IMG/VR virus record: IMGVR_UViG_3300028829_007756
Location: 35,244 to 99,243 of that record
From: a virus
Strand: one strand, 5' to 3'
Length of the DNA stretch: 64,000 nt
Below, one piece after another: positions 48,743 through 63,645 of this stretch; within the stretch, counting starts at the first letter, position 1; every line of letters starts with the position of its first letter. Below the pieces are notes generated by a model. That model was not told the DNA's origin. It searched no databases and saw only the letters and a list, made by a program, of their open reading frames with translations. The translations under genes were made by a program, and so were the position numbers.

Positions 48743-48745
48743 GTT

Positions 48746-49495: not shown

Positions 49496-49496
49496 A

Positions 49497-49631: not shown

Positions 49632-50130
49632 AATTGGAGATCATATCAAAGAAAAATCACTTCGCCTTAAAAAGCGAATTGGTGAGATTCTAAATATTAG
49701 AGGGGATAGTAAAACTAATCCTACATTTGAATGTATGCTTGTTCACTATAAGACACTAGAACCTATTGAAGATGCTTTCGGTGGACATAAAATTTTCAAT
49801 GTGAAAAAAGATAAGTGCAAATACTACATTCCTCGCAATAAATTATTCGCAAAGAAACCTTTTGATATTAGTTCTTACATTTCTTACAAAAATAAATACG
49901 GCAGAATTATTTGCTATTTAAATAGAGAAGATGGATTGTATCCACATTCTTATGATATGCGCCGACATAATGGAAAAGATTTACTAGAATGTATTGAGGT
50001 TAATCCTATTGGTTTAGCTAGAGTCACATATGATTCGGGTGATCCAAAAATTTTCATTGCTGATCCAAATAATAGCAAGGTGCTAGATGTTATCATTGAC
50101 GAAGAAGATGGAAAAACTAAATTAAAATAG
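49615..50130 (+). CDS. hypothetical protein (171 aa)
   Basis: Basic and beta-rich (KIGDHIKEKSLRLKKRIGEI, ARVTYDSGDPKIFIADP). No family recognised. Overlaps the chimeric micro-gene by 17 bp. Confidence 0.65.
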   Translation: MKHLFKIGDHIKEKSLRLKKRIGEILNIRGDSKTNPTFECMLVHYKTLEPIEDAFGGHKIFNVKKDKCKYYIPRNKLFAKKPFDISSYISYKNKYGRIICYLNREDGLYPHSYDMRRHNGKDLLECIEVNPIGLARVTYDSGDPKIFIADPNNSKVLDVIIDEEDGKTKLK

Positions 50131-50132
50131 AA

Positions 50133-50162
50133 TTGTCTTAGCAGGGAACTAGATAGTATAAT
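50133..50162 (+). promoter_or_regulatory. candidate sigma70-type promoter
   Basis: TTGTCT, 18-bp spacer, consensus TATAAT (50157-50162), 10 nt before the ATG at 50173. The short distance leaves at most about 4 nt of leader. Confidence 0.5.
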
Positions 50163-50172
50163 AATAGCTATT

Positions 50173-50613
50173 ATGGATATAAATAAATTAATACAAAAAC
50201 GAATCAAAATTAGTGTCGATGAATATCTTGAACGCAATGGCTTTGAACATCATCCAATTATGAATGAAGAAAATGGTTGGATGCACGATTGGAGTGAAGT
50301 CTCCAAACTTATGGGTGAAGAAATTGTTGGTGAATATATTGATTCATATAATATTACTTTAGAGCATTATGAATCTTATATGGCTGATCTTATAAATGCT
50401 AGACATGAAGATGAAAAAATGAAACTTGATTCTACAATTAAAAAATTAATAGATAAAATTTACAAACAAGGCTTGACAAAAGAGAGTATGCAAGACATTA
50501 TGCTAATCATGTACAATGCAAAACTTGTTGATAAAATTGGAACAATTAATTATTGCTTAGACAAGCATGGTGTTTGGCTAGAAGATCAAAAAAATGAACA
50601 CATTAACAGATAA
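50173..50613 (+). CDS. hypothetical protein (146 aa)
   Basis: Mostly helical, with an acidic-basic mix (ISVDEYLERNGFEHHPIMNE, YESYMADLINARHEDEKMKL). No family recognised. The 3' end overlaps the macro-domain gene by 20 bp. Confidence 0.6.
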   Translation: MDINKLIQKRIKISVDEYLERNGFEHHPIMNEENGWMHDWSEVSKLMGEEIVGEYIDSYNITLEHYESYMADLINARHEDEKMKLDSTIKKLIDKIYKQGLTKESMQDIMLIMYNAKLVDKIGTINYCLDKHGVWLEDQKNEHINR

Positions 50614-51109
50614 TATAGAAATCATTGAAGGTAACTTGCTCAAGATGCACTTTCATGGGTTTGACTACATTGCTCATTCTTGTAATACCCATAATGTAAT
50701 GGGTGCAGGTATTGCATTAGATATAAAACACACTTATCCCGAAGCATATAGTGTCGATTGTCATGCAATGATGGAAGGTAAAAATATTTTGGGGAATTTT
50801 AGTTTTGCATGGACTGATGCTACCCAAACGAAAGGGGTATATAATATGTATACCCAAGATAAAATTGGGGGCAAACGAGCAGTTAATTACGAGGCATTCT
50901 ATGTTGCGCTAGAAAACGTTGCAGATCATATCGAATGGCAAAGTAAGCACGATGACGAAGAGAAAGTTCTAGGCTTACCCTACGGCATCTCTTGCGGTCT
51001 TGCGGGTGGAAGTAAAAGGATCATCAATACAATGATCCACGACATTTTAGTTGACAGATCATTTAAAACATATATAGTTATTAGAAGAAGCAATAGGCAA
51101 CCTAAATAA
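50594..51109 (+). CDS. macro-domain (ADP-ribose-binding) protein
   Basis: HSCNTHNVMGAGIALDIKHT then YPEAY is the ADP-ribose-binding loop. GNFSFAW, VYNMYTQ, AVNYEAF and VLGLPYGISCGLAGG complete a full-length macro domain. It may hydrolyse ADP-ribose-1''-phosphate or protein-linked ADP-ribose. In phages such proteins can limit NAD-based signalling or aid tRNA repair, but this is inference. Confidence 0.88.
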   Translation: MNTLTDNIEIIEGNLLKMHFHGFDYIAHSCNTHNVMGAGIALDIKHTYPEAYSVDCHAMMEGKNILGNFSFAWTDATQTKGVYNMYTQDKIGGKRAVNYEAFYVALENVADHIEWQSKHDDEEKVLGLPYGISCGLAGGSKRIINTMIHDILVDRSFKTYIVIRRSNRQPK

Positions 51110-51179
51110 CATTCAAGAAAACATTGATGCAGTCATCTATGCGATTGGAGATTCTCCTCAAAAATATACAGAAGACGAG

Positions 51180-51392
51180 TTGCTAAATATGTTGATGGGC
51201 ATGAGCCAACTTCATCAAACTTGGTACGACAAATTATGGGTTGAAGTCGAAAACTTTAAAAGAAAGCATAATGTTTTTGATGAAGATGATATTTTTGATC
51301 AAAATTCCTTAAAACAAAAATCTAAAGACTGCACTTACCCTTATTGTAAAGTTACTCTTGCAGATTCAGAAGGCTCTATTGATGAAGGGTAG
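51180..51392 (+). CDS. hypothetical protein; true start unclear
   Basis: The frame is open from 51078. It reads a protein-like N-terminus (EEAIGNLNNIQENIDAVIYA then IGDSPQKYTEDELL) before the first plausible start, a TTG at 51180. No ATG exists in the upstream part. Either a rare start (ATA/ATT) is used or the original start was lost. The body MSQLHQTWYDKLWVEVENFK is typical of small phage proteins. The coordinates give the minimal version. Confidence 0.5.
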   Translation: MLNMLMGMSQLHQTWYDKLWVEVENFKRKHNVFDEDDIFDQNSLKQKSKDCTYPYCKVTLADSEGSIDEG

Positions 51393-51465
51393 AATTGGAG
51401 TTTTAATTGAAATTATTATAATTTTATTCTTGACGATAATGATGATTTATGCTAGTTTTTACTAA
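51382..51465 (+). CDS. micro membrane peptide (27 aa)
   Basis: MKGRIGVLIE then an unbroken hydrophobic helix (IIIILFLTIMMIYASFY). It overlaps the previous stop by 11 bp and the next ATG by 1 bp (TAATG). The tight junctions support translation. A small single-pass membrane peptide of unknown role. Confidence 0.5.
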   Translation: MKGRIGVLIEIIIILFLTIMMIYASFY

Positions 51466-51536
51466 TGCAAGTTTTTTATAAACTATTTTACATAAACCTT
51501 TTAATTTTATTTTTAATAATGTTATATTCAATATGA
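51465..51536 (+). CDS. micro membrane peptide (23 aa)
   Basis: MQVFYKLFYINLLILFLIML then YSI. Starts in the previous stop (TAATG) and ends in the next start (ATGA). A single hydrophobic helix, the second in tandem. Confidence 0.45.
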   Translation: MQVFYKLFYINLLILFLIMLYSI

Positions 51537-51814
51537 GTGCGAAAAATAGCCATTTAACAATTAGAGAAGAGTTAGTTGAAGACGAATTGTCTGTACCTGT
51601 TAGGTTTCTTGATTATCAAGAAGATGATTGGATTGCAGATAGTGATGCTTTAAATATAGATGTAGAATATTCTACTGATGGCGAGCAGTTAGACGATATG
51701 TCGGGCTATAATATAATTGTTAGGATTACCGATCCAAATAAATTAGATAAATACGGCAATCCTTGGAAAAATAGATTAGCTTTTGCAATTTCATCAGATT
51801 TTGATTGGAACTAA
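51533..51814 (+). CDS. small acidic hypothetical protein (93 aa)
   Basis: Acidic, beta-rich (LSVPVRFLDYQEDDWIADSD, YNIIVRITDPNKLD). ATGA overlap with the upstream peptide. No family recognised. Confidence 0.6.
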   Translation: MSAKNSHLTIREELVEDELSVPVRFLDYQEDDWIADSDALNIDVEYSTDGEQLDDMSGYNIIVRITDPNKLDKYGNPWKNRLAFAISSDFDWN

Positions 51815-51831
51815 ATAGAGAGGAAACAAAT

Positions 51832-52068
51832 ATGGGTTACGATTTATCAAACAGAGAAAGAGGCTTCAGATGGAATATTTGGGGTTGGGGAAATGTTATT
51901 AATTTAGGTTTGGCTTATGATTGGCAACCAAAAGGCACAGAGCTAGATAAAAATGCCTATGAGCATTACGAAGACTACGAAGAACACTCTAAACACTTTG
52001 AAGGCGGTTATTTCGGCAATGATGGTCAAATAGTTCACGCAGAAGATGCTAAAGCACTTAGTGATTAA
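51832..52068 (+). CDS. conserved phage protein, N-terminal part before an in-frame TAA
   Basis: Start at MGYDLSNRERGFRWNIWGWG with a GAGAGGAAA site 8 nt upstream. The text GNVINLGLAYDWQPKGTELD ... GYFGNDGQIVHAEDAKALSD is the usual N-terminal part of a phage family. Normal members continue with an ALE.AL.DIPD segment. Here a single TAA (52066-52068) precedes exactly that continuation. See the next entry. Confidence 0.7.
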   Translation: MGYDLSNRERGFRWNIWGWGNVINLGLAYDWQPKGTELDKNAYEHYEDYEEHSKHFEGGYFGNDGQIVHAEDAKALSD

Positions 52069-52281
52069 CTAGAATCTGCATTGGATGATATCCCTGATGA
52101 AGATTTAAACAATTATCCCGAAGGTGGAGTTCCTATCAATAAGGATTTCTTTGAGAAAAGGTCTAAGATTTGGAATCAAGAAAAAGCTACACTAGTAACT
52201 GCTTTTTCGGGTGAGAAAAGCAAGGGTTACTTGAGGGATTTTATTTCCTTTTTAAGAGAAGGAGCTTTTGCAATTTACTAA
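52069..52281 (+). pseudogene. in-frame continuation after TAA (70 codons)
   Basis: Directly after the TAA the same frame reads LESALDDIPDEDLNNYPEGG ... SKGYLRDFISFLREGAFAIY, the expected rest of the protein. No ATG starts it; an inner TTG at 52081 is the only candidate. The stop context is TAA CTA G. Explanations: nonsense mutation, sequencing error, or stop-codon readthrough. Confidence 0.6.
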
Positions 52282-52294
52282 TAAATATAATAAT

Positions 52295-52513
52295 ATGAAA
52301 GAAAATGAACAAGTAAAGAGGTTAAAATCTCTATTAACTATAAATAAAATTAATAATGATTATAACCCTATGACCGAAGAAGAAATATCTAATTCAACAG
52401 GAATACCTCTCAAAGATATTCAAGATAGCTTACAAGGCGCATACTCAAAATTAATGAGTAGCGGGATTTCGCAAGAAGACTTAAAGAAATTCTCTCAAAA
52501 AGAGAGGATTTAA
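52295..52513 (+). CDS. small protein with HTH-like segment (72 aa)
   Basis: Start at MKENEQVKRLKSLLT. MTEEEISNSTGIPLKDIQDS could form a helix-turn-helix. It might be a small regulator, but the match is only general. Converges with the minus-strand gene by 4 bp. Confidence 0.5.
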   Translation: MKENEQVKRLKSLLTINKINNDYNPMTEEEISNSTGIPLKDIQDSLQGAYSKLMSSGISQEDLKKFSQKERI

Positions 52514-52773
52514 ATTTTGTTGTCTATTTTTTGGTGAATTTTCTCAATTTTATCGTAGAGTGAAATGACATCTGTCCTTCTATCTTCTAATAATTTTTGG
52601 GCTTGTTCCCAACGTTCGCAGTCTCTAGCTCCATTTCTAGCTAGTTCTACTTCTATTTGTCTTAATTTAGTTGATAGTTTTTCTACTCTCAAGTTCTCTT
52701 TTTTTAAGAAAAAAGCTACAACAGATAACATTATACCTAATGCTACGAATACTATTTCCATTAATTCCATCAA
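52510..52773 (-). CDS. small membrane-anchored coiled-coil protein (87 aa)
   Basis: One N-terminal transmembrane helix (IVFVALGIMLSVVAFFLKKE) followed by a coiled coil with CERWEQAQKLLEDRRTDVIS, a pattern recurring in hypothetical proteins of large myophages. It is the only minus-strand gene in the 47.7-64 kb arm. Confidence 0.65.
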   Translation of the reverse strand: MMELMEIVFVALGIMLSVVAFFLKKENLRVEKLSTKLRQIEVELARNGARDCERWEQAQKLLEDRRTDVISLYDKIEKIHQKIDNKI

Positions 52774-52790
52774 ATAACATTACACTTTAA

Positions 52791-52958
52791 ATGAAATTAA
52801 TTTTAAGTAAACTATTCTTTTACATTGGAGATACCATCAGTAATTTATTATATTTTGAATGGATGGGGATAGTTTTATATCCTGTTTATAAAAAGTTGAT
52901 GTTGTGGAGTTCTGAGCTTGACAAAGAAGGAAAAATATGGCATAATATTGACGAATGA
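52791..52958 (+). CDS. small membrane-associated protein (55 aa)
   Basis: MKLILSKLFFYIGDTISNLL then GIVLYPVYKKLMLWSSELD, matching the YxxGDxxS...LYPxYxxLMxWSxxLD pattern of small phage proteins. ATGA overlap with the next gene. Function unknown. Confidence 0.65.
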   Translation: MKLILSKLFFYIGDTISNLLYFEWMGIVLYPVYKKLMLWSSELDKEGKIWHNIDE

Positions 52959-53236
52959 ATGGGAAATGGGATCACTCAACCAAACCATCTACATATAAAT
53001 TACTTGACAAAGATGGAAAAGTCTTTTATAGTGGATCATTTAAAGATTGCATGGAGAAAAAAGAAGAGATGAATAAACTTATTATGGATGATTGTGATGC
53101 AGGTTACGATCAAGGCATTAAAGATTGTTATAAAATTTTAAAAGAACAATTAGATGAAATGATTGAAAATTGTAGATTTCAAGACGAATATGCTCTAAAA
53201 TTAGTTAGAGAGAAATTATTTAGCAAAAATGATTAA
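52955..53236 (+). CDS. small hypothetical protein (93 aa)
   Basis: A beta-hairpin start (TYKLLDKDGKVFYSGSFKDC) and then acidic helices. Overlaps both neighbours by 4-8 bp. No family recognised. Confidence 0.55.
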   Translation: MNGKWDHSTKPSTYKLLDKDGKVFYSGSFKDCMEKKEEMNKLIMDDCDAGYDQGIKDCYKILKEQLDEMIENCRFQDEYALKLVREKLFSKND

Positions 53237-53345
53237 CGCAATTCTACAATCTGACATAAAATGGGATGCGGTTATTGCAATTATAATAATCATCGTATGT
53301 CTCGTAGTTAGTATTTATAACCTTTGGAATGATAAAATAGATTAA
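53229..53345 (+). CDS. micro membrane peptide (38 aa)
   Basis: A single hydrophobic helix (AVIAIIIIIVCLVVSIYNLW) flanked by polar ends. Overlaps the previous gene by 8 bp and joins the next by TAATG. Confidence 0.55.
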   Translation: MINAILQSDIKWDAVIAIIIIIVCLVVSIYNLWNDKID

Positions 53346-53992
53346 TGATCCTAAGTAAAACAAAAACAATACTTTATAAGCCCAAATATAATCATTATTA
53401 CTTTTATAGTAGCAGACCAAAGCTCGATAAAAAAGGTTTAGTTAAAAAACGAGGAAATAATATTGTATTGTGCGATTTAGCTCATTGTAGGTCAATCTAT
53501 CCCGAATTACCCAATGGCAGATATTATGAATATCTTATCCGTGATGATTCTTTTTTAAAGAATAAACAATGTAAAGAATATTCTTTTTATGACAAAAAAG
53601 CAGACCACAAGCAATTAGTTGGAGTTCAAATATTTGAAGATATTGACCCTAAATATATTAATTCTCAAGGTTTATATTTTGATGTCAAAGGGGGGTGTGT
53701 TCAGTTTAAAGACCTTCAATCAATAAATAAAAACCCCACTAAAAATCTCCAACCCGCTAATAAAAAATTCATGGACATGATTGAAGGTCATCGAAGAATG
53801 AAGCATTTAGATGTAAGGTCTTATTTTTATTTTGTTGAACTATACAACCGATGCCAACAATTAAATATTGGTATTCCCTACAAGGCAAAGGATTTAATTA
53901 GTAAAGTTTATAGCAATCACCATAATAAGAAGTTGCAAAAATTAGCATCAGATAATTTCGTCTCATATAAAAAGAATCATTTTAAAGAATAA
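53345..53992 (+). CDS. hypothetical protein (215 aa)
   Basis: Basic, Tyr-rich, alpha/beta. It has no recognisable catalytic motif. C-terminal helices (FYFVELYNRCQQLNIGIPYK). TAATG junction with the upstream micro-gene. Function unknown. Confidence 0.65.
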   Translation: MILSKTKTILYKPKYNHYYFYSSRPKLDKKGLVKKRGNNIVLCDLAHCRSIYPELPNGRYYEYLIRDDSFLKNKQCKEYSFYDKKADHKQLVGVQIFEDIDPKYINSQGLYFDVKGGCVQFKDLQSINKNPTKNLQPANKKFMDMIEGHRRMKHLDVRSYFYFVELYNRCQQLNIGIPYKAKDLISKVYSNHHNKKLQKLASDNFVSYKKNHFKE

Positions 53993-54031
53993 TATAATTA
54001 GATTTTTTAAATTTTTTATATATTCTATAGA

Positions 54032-54100
54032 GTGCAAGATCAAGATTGGGGAATTATACTTTTTATTTTAACATTGTTAATGTGGCTACTTTGGAGATAA
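54032..54100 (+). CDS. possible micro membrane peptide, GTG start (22 aa)
   Basis: MQDQDWGIILFILTLLMWLL then WR, a single hydrophobic helix, ending 2 nt before the next ATG. TATATT lies 7 nt before the GTG. Support is only the composition and the fit into the gap. Confidence 0.35.
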   Translation: MQDQDWGIILFILTLLMWLLWR

Positions 54101-54102
54101 AT

Positions 54103-54351
54103 ATGTCTCAAAACAAAAAAAACTCAAAAATAATTAATTATATTATTATTTTTACTGATTACTTATTGGAAGAAGATTACCCCATTTCAGTTTTAGAAGA
54201 GTTAGATGAAAGATTTGGATTTCTTTTAAAAGAATTAGATTTTTGGATTTCAAGAGGCTCTTTAAAGAGATACGAAGAGTCTTTACTTAGTTTTCTTTCT
54301 TGGGCTTACGATCAAGTCTCTCCTAGATTTTATCAAAATGGTAATATCTAA
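54103..54351 (+). CDS. small hypothetical protein (82 aa)
   Basis: Start at MSQNKKNSKIIN, 2 nt after the micro-gene. Helical (IIIFTDYLLEEDYPISVLEE and SLLSFLSWAYDQV). Overlaps the sulfotransferase gene by 14 bp. No family recognised. Confidence 0.55.
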   Translation: MSQNKKNSKIINYIIIFTDYLLEEDYPISVLEELDERFGFLLKELDFWISRGSLKRYEESLLSFLSWAYDQVSPRFYQNGNI

Positions 54352-54874
54352 TAAATATAAATTTGTTTTTATAGAAATACCAAAAACCGCCACTACATCA
54401 ATTACTAATGGATTGGCAAGAGCCTTCGGGAGAAATAATTTAGAATTAATTAAAACAAATGAAAGGCATTGCACCCTAGAAAGATGCTTGAGCGTAAATC
54501 CTCATGTCGTAAATTTTAAAAAATTTTTGTTTGTTAGGAATCATTGGGATATAGCGACATCTTTTTATTTGTTTGAAAAGAGTTTAGGTAAGCATAATCT
54601 TGAATTTTGCGATTGGATAAAAGATTGGTATATAAATCAAACATCTTGGATGTACCCAAGTGTCAATTTTATAGGAAGGTATGAAAACCTTCAAGAAGAT
54701 TTTAATTTAATAGTGGAAAGGCTAGGGGGAAAGCAAACTTTTTTAAAAAAAATAAACACTTCTGAAAATCGAGATCGAAATTACAAAGAATTCTATACAG
54801 AGAATACAAAAGAAATCTTATTTAATAATTGCAATGCCGACATAAATAGGTTGGGGTATAATTTTAATTTTTAA
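54338..54874 (+). CDS. sulfotransferase family protein
   Basis: KFVFIEIPKTATTSITNGLA is the 5'-phosphosulfate loop of PAPS-dependent sulfotransferases, and FLFVRNHWDIATSFYLF is the 3'-phosphate motif (R...S). It is 178 aa, at the short end for the family. It may sulfate a glycan made by the other transferases. An APS kinase-like domain elsewhere in the window (21856) could be related. Confidence 0.8.
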   Translation: MVISNKYKFVFIEIPKTATTSITNGLARAFGRNNLELIKTNERHCTLERCLSVNPHVVNFKKFLFVRNHWDIATSFYLFEKSLGKHNLEFCDWIKDWYINQTSWMYPSVNFIGRYENLQEDFNLIVERLGGKQTFLKKINTSENRDRNYKEFYTENTKEILFNNCNADINRLGYNFNF

Positions 54875-54892
54875 AAATTTATAAAAATATCA

Positions 54893-54921
54893 TTGACAGG
54901 ATTAAAATTTTTTAGTATCGT
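54893..54921 (+). promoter_or_regulatory. leaderless-type promoter
   Basis: TTGACA (54893-54898), 17-bp spacer, TATCGT (54916-54921), then 6 nt to the ATG at 54928. Confidence 0.72.
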
Positions 54922-54927
54922 TAGGGT

Positions 54928-55131
54928 ATGAAGCAAATTAAAACATACGAGATAGAGTTAGCGGGTACAACCTGTCGCACTTATTATATAGATGCCGAGT
55001 CTCAAGAAGATGCCGAGTTAAGAGTTTTTCAAGAAGTTGATGCTGATTGGGAATTAAGTAAGGAATGGAAACAAAATGCAGAAATAATCCATATAGAAGA
55101 GAGGGAAAAAGAATCATTGACAGATACTTAA
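54928..55131 (+). CDS. DpnD/PcfM-like small protein (67 aa)
   Basis: KTYEIELAGTTCRTYYIDAE then SQEDAELRVFQEV is the beta-beta-alpha pattern of DpnD/PcfM-like proteins. It is a close paralogue of the protein at 58296 (same DW..SK.WKQ.AE segment). Probably transcribed from the leaderless promoter just upstream. Function unknown. Confidence 0.65.
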   Translation: MKQIKTYEIELAGTTCRTYYIDAESQEDAELRVFQEVDADWELSKEWKQNAEIIHIEEREKESLTDT

Positions 55132-55145
55132 TATTTTGCTAAAGT
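55117..55145 (+). promoter_or_regulatory. leaderless-type promoter
   Basis: TTGACA (55117-55122, inside the previous gene's 3' end), 17-bp spacer, TAAAGT (55140-55145), then 6 nt to the ATG at 55152. Confidence 0.72.
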
Positions 55146-55151
55146 TGTATT

Positions 55152-55445
55152 ATGAATCAAAAATTGTTAGATCAAATAGATAAAGATAACCCTATCGAGC
55201 TTGAGGATGAGGAAAGGTCAATAGTGCTTGCTCCTAGAGAAATATTTGATTCAGCGATTATTGGTTATGAGAATAAAAGAGTCGTATATAGCGAAGAGGC
55301 TATCATACAAATATACATTGAAGAAGATGGGATGACAGAAGAAGAAGCAATAGATTTTTATCAATTTAATACCAAGTGTGCTTACATGGGTAAGTACAAT
55401 CCAATATATAAAAGCGAAAACTATGAGGAAGAATTATGGAATTAA
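55152..55445 (+). CDS. small acidic phage protein (97 aa)
   Basis: PIELEDEERSIVLAPREIFD, YSEEAIIQIYIEEDGMTEEE then AIDFYQFNTKCAYMG is a pattern I know from phage hypotheticals of unknown function. The 3' end overlaps the next gene by 10 bp. Confidence 0.65.
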   Translation: MNQKLLDQIDKDNPIELEDEERSIVLAPREIFDSAIIGYENKRVVYSEEAIIQIYIEEDGMTEEEAIDFYQFNTKCAYMGKYNPIYKSENYEEELWN

Positions 55446-55804
55446 ATCAAATAAGTAAAGAAGTAAAGTTGAAGATTGCAGATTTAGCATTAGCTCATAT
55501 CAAAAAGGTTATAGCTAACCCCGAAGTTAAAACGGATGGGGATAACTTTGACTATTGGAATAGTTTTAAATTAGAAGATGGGAATTTTGTAGACTATAAC
55601 ATTTATTGTGGAGATGATTGGTGTCAAGTAAAACAAGATGGATCGGATGAATATGAATATACTGACCCTAGCACATGGTCTTTCGGTCTTGAGATTTATG
55701 CAGTTGATCCACCGACAGAAGATAATAAATATCATCAAATAAATACTGATGATGCAGAATATTTATTTACATATCAAAATGGAGAGGTAACTTGGGAGAA
55801 ATAA
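55436..55804 (+). CDS. hypothetical protein (122 aa)
   Basis: Acidic alpha/beta protein (FKLEDGNFVDYNIYCGDDW, TDPSTWSFGLEIYAVDP). No family recognised. Part of the small-gene run from the promoter at 55117. Confidence 0.6.
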   Translation: MELNQISKEVKLKIADLALAHIKKVIANPEVKTDGDNFDYWNSFKLEDGNFVDYNIYCGDDWCQVKQDGSDEYEYTDPSTWSFGLEIYAVDPPTEDNKYHQINTDDAEYLFTYQNGEVTWEK

Positions 55805-55808
55805 TATT

Positions 55809-56099
55809 ATGCAAGTTGTATCAAAACAAATAAGCAGAACAATAGAATGGTCAGAAGGTAGGACTAAAAAAGAATTATCTAAACAAACTACATGGTCTAG
55901 CTCGAAAGATTGTAGTGGACTTAGTGGTCTTGAAGTCAAGGCTTATGATTTTAATGTTCATGTTGGTTGTACCGCAATTACTAGCCAAGGAAGAAGTCAT
56001 AATAAATATTTTCAGATTCCTGTTGACAAGATTCAAGAATTTTGCGATGCTCTTATGCAAGCAAAACAATTAATGGAAAGTAATAATGAAAAAATTTAG
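55809..56099 (+). CDS. hypothetical protein (96 aa)
   Basis: A beta-rich middle (GLEVKAYDFNVHVGCTAITS) and a C-terminal helix (VDKIQEFCDALMQAKQLMES). No family recognised. Overlaps the next gene by 14 bp. Confidence 0.55.
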   Translation: MQVVSKQISRTIEWSEGRTKKELSKQTTWSSSKDCSGLSGLEVKAYDFNVHVGCTAITSQGRSHNKYFQIPVDKIQEFCDALMQAKQLMESNNEKI

Positions 56100-56310
56100 A
56101 TTATCAATAACAGAAGAGATTGGTGGATATATTGAAGTAAATGCACAGGATGCAATTCATGCGGAAACTCTTGTAGAAGATTTGCTAGATGAATATGGAG
56201 CAGATAGACTATTTTACCCAATCCCCGAAGACAAACAAGTTTTAAGTAAATATCACACTCGTCACACTCATGGCGACAGGGGAGTGTTCAGTTGTAAGGA
56301 GATAAAATAA
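56086..56310 (+). CDS. DpnD/PcfM-like small protein (74 aa)
   Basis: MKKFRLSITEEIGGYIEVNA then QDAIHAETLVEDLLDEYG, the beta-beta-alpha pattern shared with four other small proteins in this arm. Function unknown. Confidence 0.55.
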   Translation: MKKFRLSITEEIGGYIEVNAQDAIHAETLVEDLLDEYGADRLFYPIPEDKQVLSKYHTRHTHGDRGVFSCKEIK

Positions 56311-56311
56311 T

Positions 56312-56605
56312 ATGACAAAATACGAAGAAATAAGAAAATTAAAAAGTTTATTTGATGTTGAAAGTTCATTGGATACTCAAATATATGAATTAGCAGGGTA
56401 TGATTTGATTGAAGATATTGCAGAAGATATGTTTCAATTAAAAGAAGAAATGAACAAAAGATTAAATAAAAGAATTAAAGAACTTGAATTAAACGGAGAA
56501 ATGGGAGTTAAACCTATTGATACTTCTCACTTGGACAATGATGACTTTGGAGCATTTATTAGAGGTGAAATGACAAAAGAAGAAGTAGAACAAAAAAGAG
56601 TATAA
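56312..56605 (+). CDS. small helical acidic protein (97 aa)
   Basis: Almost entirely helical (EEIRKLKSLFDVES, DLIEDIAEDMFQLKEEMNKR). 1 nt after the previous stop. No family recognised. Confidence 0.55.
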   Translation: MTKYEEIRKLKSLFDVESSLDTQIYELAGYDLIEDIAEDMFQLKEEMNKRLNKRIKELELNGEMGVKPIDTSHLDNDDFGAFIRGEMTKEEVEQKRV

Positions 56606-56609
56606 AATT

Positions 56610-56822
56610 ATGAAAAAAACATACAGAGTTCCATGCTCATGGGAAGTCTATGCACACGCTAAAGTTGAAGCAGAATCTTGGGATGAAGCAATAGCTAAAG
56701 TAGAAGATGATAGTTTTCCATTACCAACAGACCCCGATTATGTAGATGCTTCTTTTGGAGTTGACTTTCAAATAATTGAAGAAGAAAAGGCTCATCCAAA
56801 TACCTTTGGATTGGTTGATTAA
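56610..56822 (+). CDS. DpnD/PcfM-like small protein (70 aa)
   Basis: MKKTYRVPCSWEVYAHAKVE then AESWDEAIAKVEDDSFPLP. Member of the same small-protein family (strand, strand, 'EA...A' helix). Function unknown. Confidence 0.55.
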   Translation: MKKTYRVPCSWEVYAHAKVEAESWDEAIAKVEDDSFPLPTDPDYVDASFGVDFQIIEEEKAHPNTFGLVD

Positions 56823-56827
56823 TTTTC

Positions 56828-56856
56828 TTGACAATATTTTAAATATATGTCATCAT
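56828..56856 (+). promoter_or_regulatory. leaderless-type promoter
   Basis: TTGACA (56828-56833), 17-bp spacer, CATCAT (56851-56856), then 7 nt to the ATG at 56864. Read with an 18-bp spacer (ATCATA) the gap is 6 nt. Confidence 0.6.
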
Positions 56857-56863
56857 ATTTCCT

Positions 56864-57421
56864 ATGAGCGGAGAAGGAAAGTCAGTAAGTTTTAGAAGAA
56901 CTAAAAGAACTACAAAAAGTAATCAAGAATTGCTTGAAGAGTTTAAGGATTTAGTTTATTCTAATAAAAAGATAATGTCTCACATGAAATGGTATGGTTA
57001 TGCCCATAGCGTTTATATGGAAGAGCATGGTGATGAAGAATTGGAAACATGGCAAAAAGAATATGTTGCAATTAAAGATACTTTTAATTTCTGCATTAGT
57101 GTTTATGATTCTTGGTATGAAGATGCCGACCTTTATGAGTCGCATGAGAGAGAAGATAGTTTCGTCTCTATTGCTAGAAAGTTTGCAAATGACAATGCTC
57201 TTATGTATTTTCCTTGTGGTTTCACTCCCGAATGGTATGCGAAAAACGAAGAAGGAAAGTATGAACATTTTCAAGTTCAACCCGATGATAAAAATATTGA
57301 CAAAATATGTAATTTGTGGCATAATTATGGAATTATGGTATTACAAGCATTTGACGAAGAACTTGAATCTCAACTATGGTCTGAAGCTAAAGATAAAATT
57401 AAACAATTAATGGTAGCATGA
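56864..57421 (+). CDS. hypothetical protein (185 aa)
   Basis: A basic Ser/Thr/Arg-rich start (SVSFRRTKRTTKSNQELLEE), then a helical and aromatic-rich body (MKWYGYAHSVYMEEHGDEEL, YFPCGFTPEWYAKN). No family recognised. A second TTGACA-N17-CATAAT match lies inside it (57298-57326) and might serve the next gene. Confidence 0.6.
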   Translation: MSGEGKSVSFRRTKRTTKSNQELLEEFKDLVYSNKKIMSHMKWYGYAHSVYMEEHGDEELETWQKEYVAIKDTFNFCISVYDSWYEDADLYESHEREDSFVSIARKFANDNALMYFPCGFTPEWYAKNEEGKYEHFQVQPDDKNIDKICNLWHNYGIMVLQAFDEELESQLWSEAKDKIKQLMVA

Positions 57422-57702
57422 ACGAATTAAAATTAAAAGAAACAGAAGATGGTGAATTATTTTTCAACATTCCCGATGATGTACTCGAAAAATTAGGTTG
57501 GGAAGAAGGTGATGAAATAAATTTTGTCGAGCAGGATGGCGGATTTTTATTAAAAAAAGTTAAATATGAAACGATTTCTCTTGACATTGATGATGAAGAT
57601 TTGTTAAAATACATGATGTTCGCACATGAACAAGATATAACATTTAATCAATTATGCCAAAATGCAATAAAAGAAAAACTAAAGGAATTAGATAATGAAT
57701 GA
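57418..57702 (+). CDS. AbrB/MazE-type (SpoVT-AbrB) DNA-binding protein
   Basis: GELFFNIPDDVLEKLGWEEG then DEINFVEQDGGFLLKK is the swapped-hairpin AbrB fold. The C-terminal 45 residues are an acidic helical part. Such proteins bind DNA as dimers and act as repressors or antitoxins. No toxin is evident beside it, so a transcription regulator is likelier. ATGA overlap with the previous gene. Confidence 0.75.
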   Translation: MNELKLKETEDGELFFNIPDDVLEKLGWEEGDEINFVEQDGGFLLKKVKYETISLDIDDEDLLKYMMFAHEQDITFNQLCQNAIKEKLKELDNE

Positions 57703-58144
57703 AATTACAGGAGATGATTGCCCAACTTACGAAGATTCAGTAAAACTTACTCTCGCAGAAAGAGAAGTTCATAAAGATAACTTTGAAAGATTATTGGAAG
57801 AAAACTTTCAACTAAAACATCGTTTAGCTTGCATTGCTGATGATATAGAAATTATTGATAGGCATATTGCGTCTTATAAAAAGTCTCGCAAATGGTTTAA
57901 GCAACCAAGCCTTAATGCTGATGGAACTATCTATGCAGACCAAGCATGGCATAATGTTACTAATATACAAATTGCTTGCGATTTAAATGACGATGAGCCA
58001 TTGGAGTGGGGTAGTAAAGTTAAACACGAAGCAGAACTTGACAACCTCAATAAAGATTTAGGTGAAGACCCTGTTTTTCAAGGTCATTTAAAACACATGG
58101 AATCAGAAGGTGAGTTTTTTAGCAAATATAAAGCAACAAAATGA
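57695..58144 (+). CDS. hypothetical protein (149 aa)
   Basis: Helical, with a central coiled-coil segment (FERLLEENFQLKHRLACIAD), then a polar half. No family recognised. Overlaps neighbours by 4-8 bp. Confidence 0.55.
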   Translation: MNEITGDDCPTYEDSVKLTLAEREVHKDNFERLLEENFQLKHRLACIADDIEIIDRHIASYKKSRKWFKQPSLNADGTIYADQAWHNVTNIQIACDLNDDEPLEWGSKVKHEAELDNLNKDLGEDPVFQGHLKHMESEGEFFSKYKATK

Positions 58145-58299
58145 AAATGCAAATGTTAAGAGTTAAAGTCCCTGTTTCACAATGTATAGATGAAGTTTTG
58201 TTATATATTTCAAATATGCAAGGCGAGGAAGATTCTTGGCAATCAGTTTGTAAACCATTAAAACAATTAAAAAAGAAAGCGTTAAAAGAAGAAGAATGA
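58141..58299 (+). CDS. small hypothetical protein (52 aa)
   Basis: MKMQMLRVKVPVSQCIDEVL ... KKKALKEEE. Joined to both neighbours by ATGA overlaps, which supports it. Function unknown. Confidence 0.55.
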   Translation: MKMQMLRVKVPVSQCIDEVLLYISNMQGEEDSWQSVCKPLKQLKKKALKEEE

Positions 58300-58490
58300 A
58301 AAAGAAATTTTATGATGTAGAGTTTGTTGCAACTACTTACCGCACTTACGAGGTAGAAGCAAGTTCACAAGAGGAAGCAGAAGAGATTGCCCTTGCTGAA
58401 CTTGATGAAGATTGGGAAGTGAGCAAAGCATGGAAGCAAGATGCAGAAGTTAGTCACGTAGAAGAATTAAAATCTGAACCAAATGGATAA
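58296..58490 (+). CDS. DpnD/PcfM-like small protein (64 aa)
   Basis: KKFYDVEFVATTYRTYEVEA then SSQEEAEEIALAEL. It is close to the 54928 protein over its whole length, including DW.VSKAWKQDAEV. A duplicated gene pair 3.4 kb apart. Confidence 0.65.
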   Translation: MKKKFYDVEFVATTYRTYEVEASSQEEAEEIALAELDEDWEVSKAWKQDAEVSHVEELKSEPNG

Positions 58491-58501
58491 TTTAAATTAA
58501 A

Positions 58502-59017
58502 ATGATAGAAGCAAAAGTTACCGAAGAAATTCTTGAAGATGCTAAAGCAAGAAATGAAGAGTTTTTTCAAAAATTTGGAAACAGAGGAACACATAGAAAT
58601 AATAAAGAACAAAGAATGACAGGGTACATAGCTGAGTCTTGTATAAAGAAGAAGTTTGATGTTTTTCAATATAGTCAAGACATTAATGTTGATTTTAATT
58701 TAGATAATCTTACTATCGACTCCAAAGCACAAGGTTGCAACTCAAGACCTCTTGATTATTATAGTGCCACATTATATGAAGATCAGAAAGAAAGAAGCAC
58801 AGATTATTATATTTTTAGCAGAGTAAAAAAAGACTTTACAATGGCATGGATATGTGGTATTATTTCTAAAATTAAATTTTTTAAAATATCAAAATTACAA
58901 CCCAAGGGAACTATAACAAAAAACTTTAGATACGATCAATCGAGGTACGAGGTTCAGTACAAAGAATTAGCAGATATAAATGTTTTCTTAAATTGGTACG
59001 ATCAGAATAAAAAATAA
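58502..59017 (+). CDS. PD-(D/E)XK nuclease-like protein (171 aa)
   Basis: MTGYIAESCIKKKFDVFQYS then INVDFNLDNLTIDSKAQG gives the E ... D ... DxK pattern of restriction-type nucleases (TIDSKA being the D-x-K strand). It could cut host or phage DNA or be a degenerate DNA-binding relative. Specificity unknown. Starts 11 nt after the upstream stop. Confidence 0.55.
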   Translation: MIEAKVTEEILEDAKARNEEFFQKFGNRGTHRNNKEQRMTGYIAESCIKKKFDVFQYSQDINVDFNLDNLTIDSKAQGCNSRPLDYYSATLYEDQKERSTDYYIFSRVKKDFTMAWICGIISKIKFFKISKLQPKGTITKNFRYDQSRYEVQYKELADINVFLNWYDQNKK

Positions 59018-59018
59018 T

Positions 59019-59252
59019 ATGAAAAAAGAATATTGCGTAGGAGTTAAAATAATTAATTGTTTTTATGTCGAGGCAGAAAATCGAGACGAAGCAGAGCAAA
59101 TAGTGCGTGAGTATGATCCATACAAAACTCTTGATGATTGCGATTTTAGTATTGAATATGCTGATCCTACAAATGGAGAGATTGCATGGAAAATAAAATC
59201 AGATGAAATTGATTGGAGTAAACTCCACAACAAACATGATGAATGGAAATAA
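59019..59252 (+). CDS. DpnD/PcfM-like small protein (77 aa)
   Basis: MKKEYCVGVKIINCFYVEAE then NRDEAEQIVREYDPYKTLDD. Fifth member of this small-protein family in the arm. Function unknown. Confidence 0.55.
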   Translation: MKKEYCVGVKIINCFYVEAENRDEAEQIVREYDPYKTLDDCDFSIEYADPTNGEIAWKIKSDEIDWSKLHNKHDEWK

Positions 59253-59257
59253 ATAAC

Positions 59258-59464
59258 ATGAATAAAGAAACTATGGAATCTCTAAAAAAAGAAGAAGACG
59301 TTGCAAATCACATTTATGATTTAAAAAAATCTATTAGGCATTTAGAAATTGAATTGGATTATGAAGAATCTCAACGTAGAAATAATTTCAAATATATAAA
59401 AGAGTTAGAGAAAAAAATAAACGATAAATATGAAAAGCTAGATTCATTGTATGAATCAAAATGA
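59258..59464 (+). CDS. small coiled-coil protein (68 aa)
   Basis: MNKETMESLKKEEDVANHIY then a continuous charged helix (KKSIRHLEIELDYEESQRRN). An ATG 15 nt earlier is also possible. Function unknown. Confidence 0.55.
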   Translation: MNKETMESLKKEEDVANHIYDLKKSIRHLEIELDYEESQRRNNFKYIKELEKKINDKYEKLDSLYESK

Positions 59465-59474
59465 AAGGAACAAA

Positions 59475-59693
59475 ATGAGAACAACTGAAAGGCAAACTAG
59501 AGAAGGCGAACCCACTATTGATGATATGCGTTATGATCTTGCTGAACAAGAAGCAATGAACATTAAGACAGGTCAAATAATAGAGTTATTATTAAATGGA
59601 TTTGAAGGTTTGGATGAAATTTCCGACCTCGAAATCAAAGATGAATGGAAGCAATTATTTGGAGAAAATTTAAAAAAAGATTTGACAGATTAA
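59475..59693 (+). CDS. small acidic helical protein (72 aa)
   Basis: Start at MRTTERQTREGE preferred because AAAGGAA lies 6 nt upstream; ATG at 59451 is the alternative. Helical (TGQIIELLLNGFEGLDEISD). Function unknown. Confidence 0.5.
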   Translation: MRTTERQTREGEPTIDDMRYDLAEQEAMNIKTGQIIELLLNGFEGLDEISDLEIKDEWKQLFGENLKKDLTD

Positions 59694-59710
59694 ATTTCTT
59701 CTGCTAGTGT
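59682..59710 (+). promoter_or_regulatory. leaderless-type promoter
   Basis: TTGACA (59682-59687, overlapping the end of the previous gene), 17-bp spacer, TAGTGT (59705-59710), then 6 nt to the ATG at 59717. Confidence 0.7.
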
Positions 59711-59716
59711 ATGGTT

Positions 59717-59881
59717 ATGACATTAGAAGAGGCATTAGAATTAGTCGTTAATGAAGCAGAGGTTTCTGCTATTGGCGAAAGTACAGATCAAAATAAATTA
59801 GTATTAAGTGCTTGCAAAATGTTGCGAGATCATTTAAAGTTAATCAATAAAATAGAAAGCGAAAATTATGAAATTCTTTGA
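59717..59881 (+). CDS. small helical protein (54 aa), probably leaderless
   Basis: MTLEEALELVVNEAEVSAIG, then SACKMLRDHLKLINKI. The open frame begins exactly 6 nt after the promoter -10 and overlaps the next gene by 14 bp, so both promoter and gene support each other. Function unknown. Confidence 0.6.
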   Translation: MTLEEALELVVNEAEVSAIGESTDQNKLVLSACKMLRDHLKLINKIESENYEIL

Positions 59882-60494
59882 AAGAAGTAGAGTAAAATGG
59901 AATCGTTGGCAACCAACCGACCTAGTATTTAAAAGTAATGCTATGGTTAAAAAGATAGTTCCATCCGAAAACATTTTAAGTTATTCCACCAAGTCGAATC
60001 GTGATTACGAGATGGCACAACGTTCGGGTGGAGATAGCGAGCAAAGGAAACATTGGAATGGTCAAGTTTATACTTATTATAATCGAGACAAATATCGTGC
60101 GGTTCATGTTAAATTAAAAGATTTAAAAACTCCATTTCCAACTGCTGATATTGATTTTATAGATTATGTAGCTCAAAATGATAGCGTAGGCAATATGTTT
60201 TCACCAATAAATGCCCTTGTTTATGTAGGTAGCTTTCATCAAAGAACACAATGGGTGCAAGGCTCAAATGGTCATTATACCACTCAAAAAGTGGGCAAGA
60301 TTGCTCCTGTTCGTGAAGGCTACAGAATTGCTTATGGTGGACAAGGAGATTCAAATTATATGTCAGCTCAAAACTTAGAAGAAATAGCACAAATAACAGA
60401 TGCGGTCTTAAACTTTATTATTGAGGTTGTTGTCCCATTTAATAATGGTGAGTCGGTCGAACATCATCTTGAGCATAATTTGATGGTAGCATGA
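59868..60494 (+). CDS. hypothetical protein (208 aa)
   Basis: Beta-rich, aromatic (HWNGQVYTYYNRDKYRAVHV, INALVYVGSFHQRTQWVQGS). No family recognised. Overlaps neighbours by 4-14 bp. Confidence 0.6.
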   Translation: MKFFERSRVKWNRWQPTDLVFKSNAMVKKIVPSENILSYSTKSNRDYEMAQRSGGDSEQRKHWNGQVYTYYNRDKYRAVHVKLKDLKTPFPTADIDFIDYVAQNDSVGNMFSPINALVYVGSFHQRTQWVQGSNGHYTTQKVGKIAPVREGYRIAYGGQGDSNYMSAQNLEEIAQITDAVLNFIIEVVVPFNNGESVEHHLEHNLMVA

Positions 60495-60694
60495 TAGAGC
60501 ATATACATAAAAATGCTTATTTATTGTTCGATAAGTATGGTGGAAATAAATTAATCACATTAGATGATGTTTTATGTTTGAGTCCAATTATGAGATTAAT
60601 GACAAAAGATTCAGCAAAAAGAGTAGCTAAAATAAAGTTGTCAAATAAATTAATTAATTTAAAAGTCGAAGAGTTAATGCAGTATTGCAAATGA
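60491..60694 (+). CDS. small basic helical protein (67 aa)
   Basis: MIEHIHKNAYLLFDKYGGNK ... DSAKRVAKIKLSNKLINLKV. ATGA junctions on both sides. Function unknown. Confidence 0.55.
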   Translation: MIEHIHKNAYLLFDKYGGNKLITLDDVLCLSPIMRLMTKDSAKRVAKIKLSNKLINLKVEELMQYCK

Positions 60695-60891
60695 TTAATA
60701 AATTTAATCCAAGCGAGAAAGAGTATTTTCTATATCAAATAATTAGTTCGGCAGAATTAATTCTTGATGAATTAAATAATGGCGCTGAGATTAGCGAGCG
60801 CAATTATGACCAAATTAAATTAGCAGATCAGATTTTACTTGACATAGAACAGGAATTGACATCAAAAAATAAACCATCCCATTTAAAATGA
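60691..60891 (+). CDS. small helical protein (66 aa)
   Basis: ATG at 60691 (ATGA overlap) rather than the upstream TTG. MINKFNPSEKEYFLYQIISS then AELILDELNNGAEISE. Function unknown. Confidence 0.55.
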   Translation: MINKFNPSEKEYFLYQIISSAELILDELNNGAEISERNYDQIKLADQILLDIEQELTSKNKPSHLK

Positions 60892-60983
60892 ATATAATAG
60901 ATTTAATTGAGCTTTTCTGCTTTTTGCTTGGTAGTCTAGCGTTTGTTTTGTTTTTAGCCTTTGTAGTGTTTAGTGGAGAATGA
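60888..60983 (+). CDS. micro membrane peptide (31 aa)
   Basis: MNIIDLIELFCFLLGSLAFV then LFLAFVVFSGE, one hydrophobic helix. ATGA overlaps on both sides, a strong positional argument for translation. Confidence 0.55.
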   Translation: MNIIDLIELFCFLLGSLAFVLFLAFVVFSGE

Positions 60984-61387
60984 CTAAAAAAGGTTATACC
61001 ATATCTAAATATTCTAATTGTTGTTATTGCGGAAATAAACTGATTGGAAGGCAAAGAATTTATTGTTCAAAAAAATGCAAAGACAAGCAAGAGAGAAAAA
61101 ATAACCCATCCTACATAAGACAAAGAAAAAGAGGAATAAATAGAAAACTTAAACTAATTGAAGCAAAAGGTGGAAAGTGTGAAATTTGCGGTTACGATAA
61201 AAATATAGCCTCATTAACATTTCATCACATCGACCCTAAAACAAAATTTTTTAATGTAGAACTGAGAAACATAGCAAATTACAAGTGGAGTAAAGTTTTA
61301 AATGAATCCGCTAAATGTCGTTTGCTTTGTCATAATTGTCATCACGAAATTCACAATCCCGATTTTGATAAAGAAAAATGGAAATAA
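60980..61387 (+). CDS. HNH endonuclease with zinc fingers
   Basis: Two zinc-binding parts. The first is CCYCGNKLIGRQRIYCSKKC. Then the HNH core: CEICGYDKN, SLTFHHIDPKTKFF and LLCHNCHHEIHN. Metal-dependent DNA nicking or cutting is expected, possibly homing. At 135 aa it is a usual length for free-standing phage HNH proteins. Confidence 0.88.
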   Translation: MTKKGYTISKYSNCCYCGNKLIGRQRIYCSKKCKDKQERKNNPSYIRQRKRGINRKLKLIEAKGGKCEICGYDKNIASLTFHHIDPKTKFFNVELRNIANYKWSKVLNESAKCRLLCHNCHHEIHNPDFDKEKWK

Positions 61388-61638
61388 AACTAGGAGTTAG
61401 AGGTAGCGCAGATTCAATCAATCACATCTTAATTAAAATAGATGATTTGACTTTAATGACTACTGAAAATTTATTTCTTGCAGGGGAAGATTATAGAATT
61501 AAAACAGGAAAAAATTTAGCTCAATTATTAAACTCTTTGTCTAAAGATCACGAAATATCCGTTGGTCAAAATGTGGCAGAAAATATAGAAAGTGAATTGA
61601 GTTTAAAAAACAATGAAATTAAAAAATATGTAAAATAG
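61378..61638 (+). CDS. small hypothetical protein (86 aa)
   Basis: MEIKLGVRGSADSINHILIK ... LAQLLNSLSKDHEISVGQNV. No family recognised. Overlaps the HNH gene by 10 bp. Confidence 0.55.
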   Translation: MEIKLGVRGSADSINHILIKIDDLTLMTTENLFLAGEDYRIKTGKNLAQLLNSLSKDHEISVGQNVAENIESELSLKNNEIKKYVK

Positions 61639-61641
61639 TTA

Positions 61642-61670
61642 TTGACAAGTTAAAAAACATATAGTATTGT
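61642..61670 (+). promoter_or_regulatory. leaderless-type promoter of the SprT-like gene
   Basis: TTGACA (61642-61647), 17-bp spacer, TATTGT (61665-61670), then 6 nt to the ATG at 61677. Confidence 0.75.
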
Positions 61671-61676
61671 AGGGGT

Positions 61677-62183
61677 ATGAACAAAGAAAGAGCAGAAGCA
61701 TTAGTAACTTTTAATCTATATAAATACAAACTATTGCAAAATGGTTGGAGATTTAGTTGGCACAATAAAAAAGTTTCTCTAGGAACTTGTAGCTATAATA
61801 AGAAAAGAATCTATCTAGCTAAATGGTATGTTGAGCTAAATGATGAAGACGAAGTTACTGATACAATTTTACATGAAGTCGCTCATGCTTTAGCCTATCA
61901 ACGTTATGGAAGTGCAGGTCATGGACATGGTAAAATATGGAAATCTATTTGTGTAGAAATAGGGGCAAAGCCCGAAAGATTACATAAGGGTGAATTGGGC
62001 AGACCCGAAGGTCATCATAAATATATTGACACTTGTTGCGGAGTCTTTTATAAAAGACATAGATTAAGAAAAAATGCTAGATATTCCTGCCCTAAATGTC
62101 ATTCTCCTTTGTATAGAGGGGAACAAGAAAAAAAAGCAGATCAACAAATTAAAGAGTTGTTAAATGATATATTTTCTTCTTGA
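61677..62183 (+). CDS. SprT-like zinc metalloprotease
   Basis: HEVAH at residues 66-70 in DTILHEVAHALAYQRYGSAG, with the third ligand in GHGHGKIWK. The C-terminal zinc ribbon is CCGVFYKRHRL ... YSCPKCHSPLY. This is the full SprT architecture (168 aa). Relatives act on DNA-protein crosslinks or at replication forks. The phage role is unknown. It has its own leaderless-type promoter. Confidence 0.88.
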   Translation: MNKERAEALVTFNLYKYKLLQNGWRFSWHNKKVSLGTCSYNKKRIYLAKWYVELNDEDEVTDTILHEVAHALAYQRYGSAGHGHGKIWKSICVEIGAKPERLHKGELGRPEGHHKYIDTCCGVFYKRHRLRKNARYSCPKCHSPLYRGEQEKKADQQIKELLNDIFSS

Positions 62184-62216
62184 TGCAATATTTTTTAAGA
62201 AATTTTAAAAAAAAGT

Positions 62217-62245
62217 TTGACGTACAAAATCATATATGGTAAAGT
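62217..62245 (+). promoter_or_regulatory. candidate promoter of rIIA
   Basis: TTGACG (62217-62222), 17-bp spacer, TAAAGT (62240-62245). It has the same core as the leaderless set, but here the ATG is 47 nt downstream, so this mRNA has a leader. Confidence 0.6.
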
Positions 62246-62263
62246 AGTTGCATAGTTTAAATT

Positions 62264-62312
62264 TTATCACACAAAAAAGAAAGTAAAGCGAAATGATTAT
62301 CACACAAAAAAG
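62264..62312 (+). repeat. 16-nt direct repeat around the rIIA start
   Basis: TTATCACACAAAAAAG occurs at 62264-62279 (leader) and 62297-62312 (codons 2-7), 33 nt apart, with AAGTAAAG nearby in both. It looks like a local duplication and could also form a regulator site. Confidence 0.8.
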
Positions 62313-63645
62313 TAAAGAACAAGTAGTTCAATCACATGACTTTGAACAAGTCAACTGCACCATTGATGCCGAAGATATGCGCTATGTAGCATCTCTTCTT
62401 CGCAACAATTATTCTAACACTCGTCTTGCGGTAGTTCGTGAGATTAGTGCCAATGCACTTGATGCGAACAAGGAAGCAGGAGTTACTCGACAAATCGAGA
62501 TTAAGTTACCAACCACAATAAATCCAACTTTTGTAGTTCGTGACTTCGGAGGTGGACTTAGCCAAGAAAATGTATTCGGTCTTTATTCCAAGTATGGCAA
62601 GTCAACCAAACGCACATCAAACAATTATATTGGCGCATTCGGCATAGGTAAGTTTGCCCCCTTGTCTTATGGCGATAATTTTACTTGTGTTTCTTATCAT
62701 GGTGGACTCAAGACATCCTACAATGTATTTGTCAATGATGATGATGACACTAAGATCGCTAAACTACATGAAGAACCAACTAGCGAACCAACAGGTTTAT
62801 CTATCGAGGTTGCGGTTTCAGAAAGTGACATTGAAGAATTTCGTTCAGTTGTTAAAACTTTCTTCCAATTCTTTCCCGAAGATGAAATGCCAAAATTTAT
62901 TGGCGTAGAAGAAGATTTCTTACCAAAGAATAAGTTTTCATTAGAAAGTGCTACTGACGATTGGTTTATTTTAGAAAATGACTCAAATGATCGTTACAAT
63001 TATAGTTCTTCTTGCCATGTTATCATGGGTAGAGTTTCTTATCGTCTTGATCGCTCATCTGTTAATGTCAGTAATTTTATTAAAGATGAAAAAGCTAAAA
63101 GAATTGTTGAAGAATTGTTGAACGAAAGTAAGTTTTATCTTCGTATGCCAATCGGTTCTGTAAAGTTGCACCACTCACGTGAATCATTAGAATACAATCA
63201 ATCTACTCAAAAAGTATTATGCAGAGCATTATACGAAGCAAGTCAAGAAATTATTGATATTGCAAAGTTAAAACTTGCCGACTCTAAAGATTTGTGGGAA
63301 GCTAAAAGAAATCATGCGGTTATTGTAAATAGTTTAAACTATTCAATACGTAACATCTTCAACAATGCTTTTGAGTGGAATGGCATTAAGATTGAAAATG
63401 CTCATTTCTCTGTTCCTTATGACGAATCAGAGAACATCACCATCACTAGATCAATCAGAACTAAAGACAATGATGCTCGCAATGGTTACAAGGTTGTTTC
63501 TAGTAAACAAAACAAAGCATTTTGTCAAGACAATTATTTGTTCGTATATCAAGATTTAGCTCTAGAACATTGTTCAATGAAGATGAAGATTTACAAGAAA
63601 TCTTTTTCATTAATCCTGCTAATCAAGATGGTATTGATTATATGA
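62293..63645 (+). CDS. rIIA: RIIA-like GHKL ATPase, frameshifted near 63560
   Basis: A homologue of T4 RIIA, a GHKL-type ATPase linked to membrane and exclusion functions. VVREISANALDAN at 48-60 is the N box, VRDFGGGLS the G1 box and GAFGIGKFAPLSY the G2 box. The frame degenerates after YQDLA (about residue 424): the last 26 residues (LEHCSMKMKIYKKS...) do not look genuine. The next frame continues sensibly (see following entry). Arg is mostly CGT/CGC. A single-base deletion near 63561-63564 explains the break. Confidence 0.88.
   Translation: MIITQKSKEQVVQSHDFEQVNCTIDAEDMRYVASLLRNNYSNTRLAVVREISANALDANKEAGVTRQIEIKLPTTINPTFVVRDFGGGLSQENVFGLYSKYGKSTKRTSNNYIGAFGIGKFAPLSYGDNFTCVSYHGGLKTSYNVFVNDDDDTKIAKLHEEPTSEPTGLSIEVAVSESDIEEFRSVVKTFFQFFPEDEMPKFIGVEEDFLPKNKFSLESATDDWFILENDSNDRYNYSSSCHVIMGRVSYRLDRSSVNVSNFIKDEKAKRIVEELLNESKFYLRMPIGSVKLHHSRESLEYNQSTQKVLCRALYEASQEIIDIAKLKLADSKDLWEAKRNHAVIVNSLNYSIRNIFNNAFEWNGIKIENAHFSVPYDESENITITRSIRTKDNDARNGYKVVSSKQNKAFCQDNYLFVYQDLALEHCSMKMKIYKKSFSLILLIKMVLII

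Follow-up and report, generated by a model that had tools for sequence, protein, structure and literature searches.

Candidate single-helix membrane micro-genes of four unrelated families in a large AT-rich environmental phage

YohP of E. coli is a 27-residue membrane protein with a single helix (PMC12719787, PMC7549839), and production of a 27-residue membrane protein is reported to lower the membrane potential and alter metabolism (PMC12719787). Short phage genes, mostly without an assigned function, are also reported to have been gathered in a small-gene catalogue of 2022 (Fremin et al.; cf. review PMC11323111). Here we analysed five micro-frames between 51382 and 60983 of a 64,000-nucleotide stretch (the window), positions 35244-99243 of the IMG/VR virus record IMGVR_UViG_3300028829_007756, which has a total of 99,243 bases. 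The virus is a large AT-rich environmental phage, and the window encodes a DnaB-like helicase, a DNA polymerase, a DNA methyltransferase and an RIIA-like protein. Between 50 and 62 kb the + strand is densely packed with small genes, most of them hypothetical. Comparison with related records, referred to by our L and G handles where needed, suggests that all but one of the five frames are genuine genes, each from a different, unrelated family, and their coding is well supported. The features are as follows.

51382..51465, + strand: family A micro-gene, 27 residues, single helix with intramembrane Glu-x7-Thr; AGAAGG upstream
51465..51536, + strand: orphan micro-frame B, 23 residues, hydrophobic; coding unproven
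53229..53345, + strand: family C micro-gene, 38 residues, one helix; C-terminal SI[YF]NLWN
54032..54100, + strand: family D micro-gene, 22 residues, GTG start; [D/N/H]WG ... LW[K/E/R] helix
60888..60983, + strand: family E micro-gene, 31 residues; ATGA at both ends; motif G-[C/S]...LF
60694..60891, + strand: small gene preceding family E; homologues mostly followed by a family E-like peptide
62293-63645: RIIA protein (RIIA-like)

The first-pass annotation of this DNA had read one hydrophobic helix from each of the five frames, and all five are present with one hydrophobic stretch apiece. The Kyte-Doolittle maxima over 17 residues are 2.89 (51382), 2.44 (51465), 3.30 (53229), 1.98 (54032) and 2.82 (60888). 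A single helix of membrane-spanning length is predicted from hydropathy, and an AlphaFold helix was obtained for family C only (residues 2-37, mean predicted local distance difference test score 82). Four of the frames share stop/start junctions with their neighbours, as had been described: 51382 and the gene before it overlap by 11 nt, 51465 begins at a TAATG and ends at an ATGA, 53229 has an 8-nt overlap and a TAATG, and 60888 has ATGA at each end. The exception is 54032, which lies 39 nt past the preceding gene. The junctions are of the same types as those of the larger genes, with offsets of -4 and -1 also seen among neighbouring genes; in a rough list of junctions, -4 is the most frequent exact value.

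Profile hidden Markov models built without the window copy, and for family E also without L076, were run against the window translated in all six frames (2,374 segments). For all four families the window frame ranked first, with expectation values (E values) of 6.7e-4 for A, 6.9e-19 for C, 6e-5 for D and 5.6e-9 for E, against 0.21, 0.031, 0.37 and 0.1, respectively, for the next segment. The share of non-synonymous changes in disjoint pairs was 0.54 (A), 0.54 (C), 0.61 (D) and 0.55 (E), where 0.78-0.82 was expected, giving binomial P values of 0.0043, 1.6e-6, 6.6e-4 and 1.4e-5, respectively; the pairs were picked from a larger set (for A and D from relatives only, leaving out the window copy), transition bias was ignored, and pairs of greater divergence had been aligned at the protein level, which leans slightly towards frame 0. 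No such deficit was seen in frames +1 and +2 of the same pairs (lowest P 0.062). Open reading frames of fewer than 50 codons under purifying selection were therefore shown for A, C, D and E, and not for 51465. In all four families the neighbouring genes differ between contigs, which fits independent genes. The first-pass annotation had taken all five frames for genuine micro-genes and had named, beforehand, frame conservation and synonymous bias in relatives as the evidence to look for; homologues and synonymous bias bear this out for 51382, 53229, 54032 and 60888, whereas 51465 is unproven. We take conservation to be the decisive evidence for these four frames. The word chain, under which the frames had been described, is misleading, as they comprise four unrelated families and one orphan in four separate slots across 9.6 kb.

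Homologues of 53229 with 37-74% identity were found in L004, L005, L054/L055, L058 and L074. Family C is flanked on both sides by homologues of the two flanking genes of the window in L005, L054/L055 and L058; it lies between the same genes with one extra small open reading frame in L004, and has other genes on both sides in L074. The C-terminal motif is SIxNLWxNN. Shorter forms of 26-29 residues retain the SIxNLW ending (L096, L097, L098 and L125, the last with V in place of one residue). Pairwise ratios of non-synonymous to synonymous substitution rates (dN/dS) are about 0.1-0.5 for pairs in which dS could be estimated. At E<=1 the family C profile (A6) matched 11 of 28 records, of which six had themselves gone into the profile, and no relative was found among cellular genome contigs.

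The family E peptide of L074 is identical to that of the window at 30/31 positions (97%) and lies between the same two genes, and the two copies differ by five synonymous changes and one non-synonymous change. A homologue of gene 60694 is present in 11 of 19 records. It is directly followed by a micro-hydrophobic frame in nine of these 11 (L076, L078, L080, L082, L086, L130, L132, L133 and L137) and not in L081 and L083; L080 and L082 were assigned to family E by slot and by eye, and were not recovered by its profile (A5). This profile matched 10 of 28 records at E<=1, and a scan of the collection yielded further family E contigs (L141, L142, L145 and L147). A 60694-like gene with family E stands at both ends of one contig (L086/L087, G004), an arrangement that a terminal repeat or an overlap of a circular genome would produce.

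In the slot of family A, between the same upstream gene and a 51533-like gene, L088 has a 41-residue peptide and L058 has two micro-frames. Alignment of these peptides with those of L004, L054, L071 and L072 revealed an invariant Glu and Thr, separated by seven residues. The window form is short and retains the helix alone. The family A profile (A3) matched 13 of 28 records at E<=1. In some relatives family A overlaps a lipoprotein-like gene (L150-L153, 3001-3126; L112, 1501-1626; L004, 2965-3090), and a second hydrophobic frame (+1) inside family A begins at the end of that gene. The amino-acid sequence of this +1 frame is likewise well conserved, so dual coding is possible in these relatives. 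An overlapping +1 frame of family A, with early weak matches in relatives, was set aside for the window, in which it is closed. A spanin pair formed by family A and the preceding lipoprotein-like gene was considered and dropped as unlikely, since the peptide has 41 residues and its helix at the C-terminal end.

Relatives of 54032, with 22-28 residues, occur in L012, L062, L063, L106 and L107. All carry WG early in the helix and finish on LW or FW followed by K or E (R in the window). The family D profile (A4) recovered six of 28 records, with no E value above 6e-6; two of the six are outside the profile. Another micro-hydrophobic frame directly precedes family D in L012, L063 and L106, and before it stands a small gene that we take to be MazG-like; the gene downstream of family D in L107 presumably resembles that of a ribonucleotide reductase subunit. 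Two further micro-membrane families were seen in relatives, one with KKDIFLLTY..INI.T.S before a 56864-like gene (L008 5325, L009 3682, L012 5075) and one ending in LQ.WYILTG.E (L002 6776, L004 6986).

We propose that the microproteins are translated together with their neighbours from tight operons of mostly hypothetical genes. Each peptide would probably insert into the host inner membrane as a single helix and, by helix-helix contact through a family-specific face, might act on a host or phage membrane complex, serving host takeover, superinfection control or counter-defence. The conserved polar and aromatic residues point to helix-helix recognition. The families probably have different partners, because their lengths, patterns of charge and conserved residues are not the same: family C is mostly basic at its end, family E acidic at its end and the long forms of family A basic at their start, which suggests different orientations and partners. 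We put the probability that these are co-translated, single-pass inner-membrane microproteins acting on a membrane complex through a conserved helix face at about 0.5, and favour modulation of membrane complexes with moderate confidence. Regulation of host membrane complexes, one of two roles that had been suggested for the peptides, is plausible.

Several points weigh against this proposal. Hydrophobic peptides can persist without a specific partner. Among the family A profile matches, that in G007 contains stops and the second one in G018 is weak, with a stop; the family A frames of L115 and L116 have no clear ATG or GTG start, and the family E match in G020 is weak and contains a stop. L002, the closest relative by gene 53345, has no 53229 in the slot, where the two neighbours abut. 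The test with the window copy left out is only partly independent, as members had first been found through the window peptides or the slot. The families are short and hydrophobic, so that weak profile matches count for little, and family D was built on six sequences.

The second role that had been suggested was lysis. The peptides might be holins, pinholins, antiholins or partners of the RIIA protein that carry out or time lysis, being single hydrophobic helices, with family E about 1.3 kb before the RIIA-like gene in the window. We consider this unlikely. The match to the holin family phrog_263 is not significant, with an E value of 0.39 for 53229 and 0.24 for L054, and family E has other downstream genes in relatives. 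The peptides are unrelated and spread over four slots among hypothetical genes, and these scattered slots, together with the lack of a significant holin match, speak against a lysis role shared by all. The sub-significant holin scores for 53229 are the only connection with lysis that emerged, and no separate lysis cassette was searched for.

The overlapping junctions are of the kind known from translational coupling, and a Shine-Dalgarno-like site within 20 nt is absent from four of the five frames. The frames could accordingly be leaders, translated only to deliver ribosomes to the next gene or to regulate it, with a functionless peptide. However, ordinary genes here mostly have no such site either (present in 6 of 41), purifying selection acts on the amino acids, and the downstream genes differ between contigs, suggesting independent micro-genes rather than leader peptides. 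We regard a leader function as improbable. Hydrophobic toxins of type I toxin-antitoxin systems, or host-killing membrane peptides, are similar in size and hydrophobicity, but we hold this identity to be of low probability: the micro-frames lie inside operons with overlapping junctions, not in stand-alone units with a long leader, and no match to known RNA families in Rfam was found up to E 0.5 in 48000-64000.

Chance tiling was assessed by dinucleotide shuffles of the gap interiors only, 4000 for each gap, with a hydrophobicity threshold of 2.0. A hydrophobic tiling frame arose in 31/4000 shuffles for 53229 and in 7/4000 for 54032, whose observed peptide is itself just below the threshold (1.98). 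The counts were 8/4000 for 51465 alone and 0/4000 for the pair of 51382 and 51465. The gap of 60888 gave 354/4000, and tiling on its own is weak evidence for this frame. In a window-wide scan of same-strand gaps of at least 50 nt, 4 of 12 same-strand micro-frames were hydrophobic, all four among those of the first-pass annotation; 54032 was masked because the next gene had been called longer, from a TTG start. That the frames are hydrophobic by chance, as products of AT-rich DNA given a gene-like look by overlapping start and stop codons, is a very improbable explanation despite the 60888 shuffles and the ease with which such DNA encodes I, F, L and Y, since A, C, D and E show amino-acid conservation, frame-specific purifying selection and conserved slots; for 51465, which has no homologue, the chance reading may hold.

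A direct search gave no homologue of 51465: the best matches were weak (E 0.014-0.03) and on the opposite strand, and two forward-strand matches at E 0.077 were both to one contig. The sole support for this frame is its exact tiling. A second micro-frame at this position is plausible, because tandem micro-membrane frames occur in relatives (L058, L063, L012, L106 and L097), and 51465 is a possible but unproven fifth micro-gene.

Beyond the proposed action on membrane complexes, the families might form a modular, interchangeable micro-transmembrane repertoire of this virus group, frequently paired in tandem, with a separate intramembrane recognition motif in each (Glu-x7-Thr; SIxNLW; WG...LW; G-C...LLF), and swapped between slots as anti-CRISPR genes are within islands. 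The variable slots would then be an arsenal for membrane-level counter-defence or host takeover that lies below the size limit of gene finding, an extension that we put forward tentatively and consider doubtful. With 22-41 codons, such genes only just reach, or fall short of, the length that gene finders usually require, so annotation may systematically overlook the part of phage-host interaction that takes place at the membrane. Here a few related contigs suffice to establish frames of this kind as conserved proteins and to single out residues for mutagenesis, the conserved ones being Glu10 and Thr18 (A), W33 (C), W6 and W21 (D) and G15 (E). Should the peptides indeed target membrane complexes of the host, they would provide minimal modulators in ready-made form.

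Other features of the region were also noted. Compared with L058, L002, L088 and L004, about 15 nt are absent from the window in 51075-51180, where the 50594 gene meets the gene after it; the usual start of that second gene is gone and the end of the 50594 gene is altered. A frame of 149 codons at 51832-52281, otherwise open, is broken by an in-frame TAA at 52066-52068, a site that is Ala in L074 and L070; a nonsense mutation, an assembly error or recoding may account for it. The single opposite-strand gene within the + operon (52510-52773, minus strand) encodes a protein with a hydrophobic N-terminus followed by charged residues, which is 50-61% identical in six relatives (L057, L061, L062, L063, L070 and L072). 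The phage encodes a sulfotransferase-like protein at 54338-54874 (Pfam PF03567, above cut-off). The 56864-57421 protein has no match among annotated phages, and the DNA polymerase and RIIA matches there are to very diverse phages, all at <60% identity.

Among annotated phages no match was found for 53229, the best E value for family A was 2, and for family E it was 5 or worse (Pseudomonas PA5oct-like phages). The window peptides gave nothing above the curated cut-offs in Pfam or NCBIfam and no significant match in PHROGs, where the lowest E value, 0.0097, came from the relative L106. Searches of the PDB with the four family profiles gave no match (best E 0.49, over 10 residues). The only curated model with a hint is the small membrane protein family KPN_two_small (NCBIfam NF033853), which matched residues 15-32 of 53229 at E 0.0017; however, 53229 scores 17.9 bits against a cut-off of 33 and its close homologue L054 has an E value of 0.12, so that it is not a member. 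FixQ/CcoQ (PF05545), small accessory subunits of respiratory oxidases, likewise have a single helix, and family D of L106 matched them at E 0.07, but with 13.5 bits against a cut-off of 29, and the window member has no match. CydX, another small accessory subunit of a respiratory oxidase, was not listed at E<=10 in the scan that gave the FixQ match. Families A, C, D and E thus appear to be new families of a known kind, not listed in standard databases. YohP resembles the window peptides in size and architecture and is a cellular stress protein rather than a phage gene. The 2022 catalogue may already contain some of these families; the four families here are tied to slots, and selection specific to their frames is shown.

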